Positions 53,396-55,606 of a stretch of 64,000 nucleotides of DNA are shown in pieces. The notes under the pieces were generated by a model. That model saw nothing but the letters and a program-made list of their open reading frames with translations, was not told the DNA's origin and ran no database searches. Location: NCBI RefSeq assembly GCF_000183725.1, contig NC_014762.1, positions 1,798,001 through 1,862,000 on the forward strand. The letters are read 5' to 3'. A program made the position numbers and the translations under genes. This DNA is from Sulfuricurvum kujiense DSM 16994 (GTDB lineage: Bacteria; Campylobacterota; Campylobacteria; Campylobacterales; Sulfurimonadaceae). Numbering within the stretch: position 1 is the stretch's first letter; each line of letters starts with the position of its first letter.

Positions 53396-53827
53396 ATGGA
53401 ACAAGTCATCCTCGCACAAACCGACACTACCGTCGGTTTTCTCTCGCAGAGTCCGCAGCGGCTACAGCAGATCAAAATGCGGGACACCGCTAAACCTTTC
53501 TTAAAAGTCTATGCCGATTTCAAAATGCTTCGCAAGGACATCCGTATCCCGCCGATTCACAAACGTCGTGTACGCTACGCCCGAAAAACGACCTTTATCG
53601 TCAAAGATCAGGCATTCCGTTATGTGGATGAGCCGAATCACTCACGATTGATCAAAAAGTACGGTTGGCTTTATTCTACCTCTGCCAATGAGAGCGGAAA
53701 AAACTACGATGAAACCTTTTGCCAAGCATTCAGCGATCTGATTATTGAAGATTACCGAGGATTGAGCGAAAAAAGCGCCTCAAAAATATTTCGCTTAACA
53801 CCCTCAAAAATAAAACAATTACGATAG
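53396..53827 (+). CDS. Sua5/YciO/YrdC-domain protein, short
   Basis: 143 residues, shorter than the usual ~200 of YrdC or YciO. N-terminal QTDTTVGFLSQ, a Lys/Arg-rich RVRYARKTTFIVKDQAFR and LYSTSANESGKNYDE are the nucleotide- and RNA-binding segments of the family, which makes threonylcarbamoyl-AMP for tRNA t6A or has unknown roles. It follows carB by 4 nt. The shortness may mean a degraded or specialised relative; another full-length tsaC may exist elsewhere. Confidence 0.85.
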   Translation: MEQVILAQTDTTVGFLSQSPQRLQQIKMRDTAKPFLKVYADFKMLRKDIRIPPIHKRRVRYARKTTFIVKDQAFRYVDEPNHSRLIKKYGWLYSTSANESGKNYDETFCQAFSDLIIEDYRGLSEKSASKIFRLTPSKIKQLR

Positions 53828-53837
53828 GAGCCAATCT

Positions 53838-54425
53838 ATGAAACATTTTATCTCAGCAAAACAAATTATGGTAGGAACAATGGGTCTTGCGGTACTGAGC
53901 GCCCTCAGCGGATGCCAAAGTGCCCCCGAAGAAAAACCGGCAGAACAAGCCGAAGGGCAAAATAAATTTCTGGTCGTTGAACAGCTCAGCAACGGAAAAT
54001 ACGTTATTGTTGAAGAGATGCCAACATCTGGGCCAAGCCGTGCGATTATCAAAGAGACAGATGAAAACGGTACGGTAACTGAGCGGGTAATGAGCGAAGC
54101 GGAGATGAAAGCACTCGCCGACCAAGAGTATAAAAAAATGGAAGAAGGAAAATCTGAACTCAACGCCGAACCTCAAGGTGAGGGGATGGGATTGGCCGGT
54201 ACGATCCTCGCTGCAGCTGGGGGAGCATTGCTAGGCAATATGATCGGAAATGCGTTAATGAACAACAAAAATGTTCAAAGACACCAAGATACCTCTAATC
54301 GCTCAGCCTATCATCGTTCGGCTTCAGGGGGAAGCAACTCGGCGACTTCAAATAGCCAAAAGAAAAGTTTCTTCGGAAATTCCGCCTCTAAAAGTACAAG
54401 TTCTAGCAGCAGTTACGGAGGATGA
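53838..54425 (+). CDS. UPF0323-family lipoprotein ending in Gly-Gly
   Basis: 195 residues: lipobox LSALSGC (Cys about 26), then a soluble region with YxxE-rich segments, a Gly/Ala-rich segment (GMGLAGTILAAAGGALLGNMIGNAL) and a Ser/Asn-rich disordered tail ending SYGG. It resembles the UPF0323 lipoproteins of Campylobacter and Helicobacter (e.g. Cj0371). Its last two codons, GGA GGA, carry the ribosome site of the next gene, a GspS-like ligase, so the pair is coupled. Its role is unknown. Confidence 0.88.
   Translation: MKHFISAKQIMVGTMGLAVLSALSGCQSAPEEKPAEQAEGQNKFLVVEQLSNGKYVIVEEMPTSGPSRAIIKETDENGTVTERVMSEAEMKALADQEYKKMEEGKSELNAEPQGEGMGLAGTILAAAGGALLGNMIGNALMNNKNVQRHQDTSNRSAYHRSASGGSNSATSNSQKKSFFGNSASKSTSSSSSYGG
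54417..54421 (+). promoter_or_regulatory. ribosome site inside Gly-Gly codons
   Basis: GGAGG is formed by the final GGA GGA of the lipoprotein gene and lies 6 nt before ATG 54428. It decides the ligase start (54428) against the ATG at 54422 that directly abuts the site. Confidence 0.7.
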
Positions 54426-54427
54426 AT

Positions 54428-55606
54428 ATGGTATCGCTTCAACCTATCAAACCTATCGATGACAAAACGCTGGAGCAATTCGGTTTTGCCTGGCATACCG
54501 ACAACGATCAAAGCAAGTACATCGCCGACGAATTGGTCATCGTCAGTGACGCTGAAGCCGAAGCTTACTACGAAGCGGTCAATGAACTCTACGATATGTA
54601 CGCAACGGCAGCACAGCATGTCATCGATAACAATCTTTTTTTCGATCTCGGCATTCCGTTTAATCTTATAGAACCGATCAAAAAAAGCTGGGAAAACGAC
54701 GTTCACTGGCACCTTTACGGACGGTTTGATCTCGCAGGCGGAATCGGCGGTGCTCCGATCAAACTGATCGAATTTAATGCCGATACCCCGACGGCTCTTT
54801 TCGAAACCGCTATTTTGCAATGGGCATTATTAAAACATAACGGTATGGACGAAGAGCGCCAATTCAACACGGTTTATGAAGCGATCAGCGAAAACTTTCG
54901 CCGTCTCATTACCCTCTTTGACGATACGGAGAAATTCGAATCGCTCTATGAGGGGTGGAAAATACTGTTCAGTTCAATCAGCGGAAACATCGAAGAGGAA
55001 CAAACGGTAAGACTTCTTCAGCAAATGGCGATCGATGCGGGATTTGAAACGGGATTTGAACCGCTCGGAGGGGTTAAGTTCGATGAAGAGGGGATTTATG
55101 ACTCCAAGGACACACCGTATGAGTATTGGTTCAAACTCTTTCCGTGGGAAGATATCGCCATCGAAGAGCCTGAACTCTCTACCATGCTGACGAGTATTAT
55201 GGAAAATCAGCGTGCGATTATACTCAATCCCGCCTATACCCTCCTCTTTCAATCCAAGGGGATGATGAAAATCCTCTGCGACCTTTTCCCGGATTCACCG
55301 TATCTGCTAAAAACCTCGTATGAACCACTCCAAGGGATCCAGCAGGTCGAGAAACGGATGTTCGGACGCGAAGGTGCCAATGTCCGTATTCTTGATGCTT
55401 CAGGCAATACTGTCGAAGCTAATGACGGCCCGTACGGCAACTTCAAACCTATTTATCAAGAATACGTCGAATTTCCGAAAGACACACACGGCAACAGCTA
55501 TCAGGCGGGTGTTTTCTTCGCCTACGAAGCCTGCGGCTTAGGATTTAGACGCGGTGGCAAGATTCTGGGGAATATGTCCAAATTTGTCGGACACCTATTG
55601 CGATAA
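54428..55606 (+). CDS. glutathionylspermidine synthase-like ATP-grasp ligase
   Basis: 392 residues of the GspS carboxyligase family (IKLIEFNADTPTALFETAILQW, KLFPWEDIAIEEP, LLFQSKGMMKILCDLFPDSPYLLKTSYEP, KRMFGREGANVRI), with an ATP-grasp fold and C-terminal GKILGNMSKFVGHLL. It has no amidase domain. The family ligates an amine to a glycine carboxylate or to peptides. It is coupled to a lipoprotein ending in Gly-Gly, and the same kind of pairing occurs in the E. coli YgiB/YgiC genes. The acceptor is unknown. Confidence 0.88.
   Translation: MVSLQPIKPIDDKTLEQFGFAWHTDNDQSKYIADELVIVSDAEAEAYYEAVNELYDMYATAAQHVIDNNLFFDLGIPFNLIEPIKKSWENDVHWHLYGRFDLAGGIGGAPIKLIEFNADTPTALFETAILQWALLKHNGMDEERQFNTVYEAISENFRRLITLFDDTEKFESLYEGWKILFSSISGNIEEEQTVRLLQQMAIDAGFETGFEPLGGVKFDEEGIYDSKDTPYEYWFKLFPWEDIAIEEPELSTMLTSIMENQRAIILNPAYTLLFQSKGMMKILCDLFPDSPYLLKTSYEPLQGIQQVEKRMFGREGANVRILDASGNTVEANDGPYGNFKPIYQEYVEFPKDTHGNSYQAGVFFAYEACGLGFRRGGKILGNMSKFVGHLLR

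Follow-up and report, generated by a model that had tools for sequence, protein, structure and literature searches.

In the window, a stretch of 64,000 nucleotides from the 2.8-Mb genome of Sulfuricurvum kujiense, a gene for a lipoprotein with a Ser-rich C-terminal tail is followed directly by a gene for an ATP-grasp ligase of the YgiC/YjfC type, and we propose, with a probability of about 0.65, that this cytosolic ligase attaches a polyamine, most likely spermidine, to the C-terminus of the lipoprotein, its dedicated substrate, before export. The occurrence of the two genes as a pair is confirmed and conserved over great evolutionary distances, and ligase partners share a strong constraint on their C-termini. 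The recurrence of one tag beside one type of ligase suggests that a polyamine such as spermidine is attached to the protein end. We put at about even odds the broader proposal that exported proteins in many bacterial phyla and in phages are marked by a portable C-terminal tag, an (R/K)-x-G-F-G box and a short Gly/Ser tail with a G-G or G-S end, for polyamination before export by YgiC/YjfC-type ligases, in what would be a general bacterial system, with the window pair as the minimal two-gene form and with phages that carry either the whole system or the substrate alone.

The lipoprotein and ligase genes of the window

The lipoprotein gene (53838–54425, forward strand, as for all features given below) was recognized as an open reading frame with a lipobox and encodes 195 amino acids. 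Its predicted signal peptide (53838–53915) carries the lipobox LSGC, with the codon of the lipidated Cys26 at 53913–53915. The C-terminus reads KKSFFGNSASKSTSSSSSYGG and is Ser-rich, with the final residues SSSSSYGG. KKSFFG (54360–54377), the local form of an (R/K)-x-G-F-G box and aligned with RGGFG in other partners, is the proposed recognition site of the ligase; it is followed by a Ser-rich linker, NSASKSTSSSSS (54378–54413), and by the terminal Tyr-Gly-Gly (54414–54422), the last Gly of which would provide the acceptor carboxylate. The protein matches NCBIfam NF003146 (PRK04081) at full length with 164.4 bits (E = 2.2e-48; curated cut-off 194 bits) and is, as judged by this match, a clear relative that falls short of the equivalog cut-off. 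A search for DUF1190 (Pfam PF06693) gave no match at E 1, and the matches to SARAF, Gly-zipper and DUF2076 were weak, below cut-offs, and were set aside.

The ligase frame was called at 54422–55606, with a start that overlaps the lipoprotein stop as ATGA. The ATG at 54428 (MVSLQP...) is the likelier start because the GGA-GGA Gly codons form GGAGG (54417–54421), the likely ribosome-binding site of the ligase, six bases upstream of it; the product then has 392 aa (54428–55606) rather than the 394 aa encoded from 54422, from which residues are numbered here. The first-pass annotation had described a lipoprotein with a Ser-rich end closing in SYGG and followed by a GspS-like ligase, a description borne out by the 195-aa frame and by a ligase match to Pfam GSP_synth (PF03738) at E = 6.7e-119 that covers residues 14–392 of 394 and nearly the whole model.

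With the E. coli bifunctional glutathionylspermidine synthetase/amidase GspSA, which forms an amide on the C-terminal Gly carboxylate of glutathione, the ligase shares the ATP-grasp fold and the active-site residues R101, D103, E117, N119, E191, K279, K311, R316 and R376, the GspSA counterparts of which serve ATP, magnesium and substrate. It differs from GspSA in being a stand-alone GSP_synth ATP-grasp domain that lacks the N-terminal amidase domain, in carrying EGAN and NADTPT, as do YgiC and YjfC, where GspSA has CGSN and NADSAS, and in its far lower score: the nearest solved structures are E. coli YgiC (7uk8, 128 bits) and YjfC (7uk6, 116 bits), and GspSA reaches 51 bits. Identity to YgiC and YjfC is approximately 30%, and the best structural matches to an AlphaFold2 model of a relative (locus L104) are again YjfC and YgiC (TM by query 0.87 and 0.82). 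Both E. coli proteins bear the RefSeq name peptide--spermidine ligase, which reportedly goes back to a description of their peptide-spermidine ligase activity by Pederick and colleagues in 2023. By sequence, the window ligase belongs to the YgiC/YjfC branch and not to the glutathione-using GspSA type, with a correspondingly predicted activity. No tailed neighbour was found beside GspSA, the sole true glutathione enzyme examined.

The arrangement resembles the E. coli pairs in that the gene of an exported partner directly precedes a ligase of the same type. As the first-pass annotation had stated, YgiB adjoins YgiC and has a GG end, which reads SSRSMGG; YjfM, likewise, ends in RGHWGG and adjoins YjfC. 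Both E. coli lipoproteins (DUF1190) combine a box with a GG end (TRGGFG...RSMGG and SRGGYG...GHWGG), whereas the window lipoprotein falls outside DUF1190 and has the box KKSFFG, and its pair is without the DUF350, PspA and DUF2491 partners. DUF350 was not found anywhere in the window's genome. An operon linked to PspA/YjfI, in which an ATP-grasp ligase occurs with DUF350, DUF1190 and DUF2491 and for which polyamine genes are noted, is described in a part of Ravi et al. (2024, PMC11237479), a passage in which DUF1190 is classed as a metal-chelating lipoprotein and its C-terminus goes unmentioned. Ligase and lipoprotein share one operon there as in the window, which differs in having two genes only.

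The pair lies downstream of carB and a 143-aa Sua5/YrdC-like frame and upstream of a galU-like frame, carB and galU being named from their translations. The Sua5/YrdC-like frame (53396–53827; PF01300, E = 2.1e-8) is short for its family and ends ten bases before the lipoprotein gene, so that both may lie on a common transcript. A scan for promoters and terminators gave no useful signal. A search of the same genome for further tail-bearing proteins, made with a synthetic 25-aa query that had no positive control, returned no matches.

A box and a small-residue end in the ligase partners

Tail partners were defined as same-strand open reading frames of at least 70 aa, within 1.5 kb of the ligase, with a box in the last 40 residues and a G, S, A or E end. 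Such a frame is present on the same strand in 220 of 245 ligase loci and on the opposite strand in one of 245. The non-redundant set comprises 115 representatives at 70% ligase identity, a threshold on which the cluster counts depend. In this set, the (R/K)-x-G-F-G box occurs in 100 of 115 partners (1.0 ± 1.0 in shuffled tails), a penultimate Gly in 86 (25.4 ± 4.4) and a GG end in 52 (5.8 ± 2.4), the last being approximately nine times commoner than in shuffled tails. The distance from box to end has a median of 10–11 residues. The last position is Gly in 47% and Ser in 43% of the 115 partners, position −2 is Gly in 75% and position −4 is Ser in 65%; some partners end in Ala or Glu instead.

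Because this selection uses the tail itself, partners were chosen a second time by N-terminal features and position only. The tail-blind choice recovered the box in 90 of 124 clusters (73%) and GG in 49 of 124, against 13% and 8%, respectively, in other lipobox frames of the same loci, some of these "control" frames being the true partner lying farther from the ligase. Three columns are conserved at 90% or more when 123 partners are aligned, namely the lipobox Cys, the box Phe (F179, 95%, in window lipoprotein numbering) and the box Gly (G180, 94%), and the box conservation is partly circular because partners were picked by that box. DUF1190 accounts for 31 of the 123 and PRK04081 for 18; most match no family, and the tail therefore goes with several kinds of body. 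In the window's phylum, partners end in FGG or YGG in many genera and in FGS in others, and one genus has lost the G-[GS] end (IS, AS or NS) and retained an SGFFG-like box. Ligases of plasmids, phages and chromosomes from beyond the phylum adjoin small exported proteins in which the box reads RGGFG, SGFG, RGGYG or RGGWG and the Gly/Ser end is short.

These counts modify the earlier picture of a lipoprotein ending in Gly-Gly. GG is strongly enriched over shuffled tails, but a strict GG is found in only 40–45% of non-redundant partners; with GG in under half of them, the first-pass annotation's own grounds for doubt, the absence of GG from most paired lipoproteins, narrowly hold. Its C-terminal glycine is the commonest last residue, with Ser nearly as frequent, and we rejected a glycine-only model; this position is better described as a small terminal residue preceded by a proposed recognition box. 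The box itself, which lies approximately ten residues before the end and is better conserved than GG, was absent from that annotation. On the ligase tree, Gly and Ser ends interchange at least 24 times (28–43 with shuffled labels), a second reason against the glycine-only model.

In the window, the two Gly codons coincide with the likely ribosome-binding site of the ligase. GG is nevertheless at least as frequent without an adjoining ligase start: it occurs in 12 of 20 partners with the ligase start at least 40 nt away or with the lipoprotein downstream of the ligase, mostly encoded by codons other than GGA-GGA, and in 38 of 89 partners with the ligase start directly after, only 13 of those 38 having GGAGG. 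An origin of GG as a ribosome-binding-site by-product was rejected on these counts, and one as a composition artefact on the comparison with shuffled tails.

Of the 25 loci that lack a formal tail match, many show a variant tail or one farther off, an unlinked partner, a stop within the frame or a contig edge; no tailed partner was found at loci L114 and L152. At L191, a stop codon interrupts the box (RG*FG) of the partner frame upstream of position 855, and the tail beyond it is otherwise normal. An AlphaFold2 model of a tail-ligase fusion, made from L104 by reading in frame through a single stop codon, gave a confident ligase, a disordered tail and no docking.

Distribution in genomes, plasmids and phages

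A scan of genome contigs yielded 80 loci, assigned by their record titles to members of Marinimicrobia, Pseudomonadota, Verrucomicrobiota, Bacteroidota, Actinomycetota, Planctomycetota, Nitrospirota, Hydrogenedentota, Acidobacteriota, Gemmatimonadota, "Deltaproteobacteria" and Fimbriimonadaceae, which together with the window's phylum and a Bacillota plasmid makes at least twelve phyla. Viral contigs yielded 80 more loci. In the window's phylum, the lipoprotein family is present in 273 and the ligase in 270 of 298 genomes; both occur in 270, neither in 25, the lipoprotein alone in three and the ligase alone in none (genomes not listed for a gene were assigned by elimination), so that the two genes are jointly present or absent in 295 of 298. 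The three exceptions are a weak match (G086), a fragment at a contig edge (G232) and a clear lipoprotein with a full tail (G212), in the genome of which no ligase was found. Joint absence was observed inside genera that otherwise have both genes (codes g2, g16, g20 and g49), including genomes assembled in one or two contigs. In G023 and G236, two genomes with widely separated genes, the tail is still present, as SFGS and SMGA.

Phages of Enterobacterales that lie outside the ligase matches listed encode orphan DUF1190 lipoproteins (L252–L257), all six of which have the tail, as RGGFG or RSGFG...GG. Their hosts belong to the group that has YgiC and YjfC, and these lipoproteins, with no adjoining ligase, look as if the host ligase were used. 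In Bacteroidota-like and some viral loci (L173, L176, L177, L181, L183, L187, L226 and others), a second small lipoprotein with an end like DYEIYITVK lies between or beside the pair. At Acinetobacter plasmid and phage loci, a transporter of the small multidrug-resistance family, to which the E. coli spermidine exporter MdtJI also belongs, directly precedes the tailed lipoprotein (L083 3305–3652; L088 3228–3569; L248, upstream).

Polyamine genes adjoin only a minority of pairs. Among 99 neighbours, DUF350 is the commonest (20), and we identified two spermidine-synthase-like proteins, one AdoMet decarboxylase, one Orn/Arg decarboxylase and one saccharopine-dehydrogenase-like protein. Achromobacter phage Motura encodes a homospermidine synthase, a tailed lipoprotein and a ligase in a row (L086 2656–5481). 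The window's genome contains nspC (E = 6.9e-163), and spermidine or norspermidine is therefore probably made.

The proposed modification and alternative readings

We infer that the lipoprotein is the substrate and the box its recognition site, and the amine, the modification before export and the envelope role are proposed on the same footing. The ligase would grip the unfolded tail of the pre-lipoprotein via the (R/K)-x-G-F-G box, here KKSFFG, and the small-residue end (-G-G or -G-S) would enter the enzyme. The terminal carboxylate would be phosphorylated with ATP, as in the acyl-phosphate route usual for ATP-grasp ligases, and would form an amide bond with a primary amine of the polyamine, most likely spermidine. 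By inspection, the ligase has no signal peptide, and since it needs ATP it should be cytosolic; acting on a pre-lipoprotein, it would therefore modify its substrate before export. The first-pass annotation had allowed for modification before or instead of export, and the former fits these predicted properties. Export, lipidation at Cys26 and anchoring in the envelope would follow and give the lipoprotein on the envelope a polycationic end, for which binding of anionic envelope polymers or shielding of the C-terminus from carboxypeptidases are guesses.

An amine other than spermidine, joined to the same substrate by the same chemistry, is unlikely overall and the first alternative to consider; homospermidine, norspermidine, another aminopropylated compound, a diamine or an amino acid might be used according to lineage. 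The homospermidine synthase beside the Motura ligase, the AdoMet and Orn/Arg decarboxylases beside other ligases, and nspC in the window's genome, a gene usable for either norspermidine or spermidine, point in this direction, whereas both E. coli enzymes carry spermidine in their name.

It is a good deal less probable that the product of the ligase is a small peptide-polyamine conjugate resembling glutathionylspermidine, with the lipoprotein as a binding partner or sensor and not as the substrate. The Pfam family and the common annotation favour this, and the Motura cluster was published in 2023 as one for possible glutathionylhomospermidine synthesis with a hypothetical gene between (PMC9992855). 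However, the ligase groups with YgiC/YjfC and not with GspSA, YgiC is described in a passage of PMC12506659, which cites Sui et al. (2012), as being without GspSA activity, and a small conjugate would not account for a disordered but conserved tail at the C-terminus of exported proteins that otherwise differ.

We consider it very improbable that the tail is joined to a larger partner, such as an amine of a protein or envelope polymer, with GG as a ubiquitin-like conjugation end. GG and GS ends do look like conjugation ends, and the GG end of SUMO/ubiquitin can be joined to spermidine in eukaryotes (+127.15 Da; PMC12270671), an analogy only, in that E1/E2 thioester chemistry and a folded ubiquitin-like protein are used there. 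No protein-acceptor module is known in the ligase, envelope polymers and ATP lie on opposite sides of the membrane, and the close relatives of the ligase use spermidine. Equally hard to credit is a tail that acts as a sorting or surface-interaction signal, with GG as a by-product of Gly/Ser composition or of the ligase ribosome-binding site: the window GGAGG is indeed well spaced from the ATG at 54428, but GG exceeds its shuffled frequency, occurs mostly in other codons where no ligase start follows, and also ends the orphan phage lipoproteins.

The literature searched names no native substrate of E. coli YgiC and YjfC and contains no description of the shared tag, an earlier mention of which is possible in Sui et al. 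(2012) or Pederick et al. (2023). The neighbours of these ligases share a tag across many phyla, and this points to the likely native substrate of the E. coli enzymes. If polyamination of the tagged lipoproteins is true, bacteria would add a polycation to the ends of envelope lipoproteins, a post-translational modification missed by standard proteome searches; phages would use this modification too, and phage genes annotated as "glutathionylspermidine synthase" would need a corrected reading.
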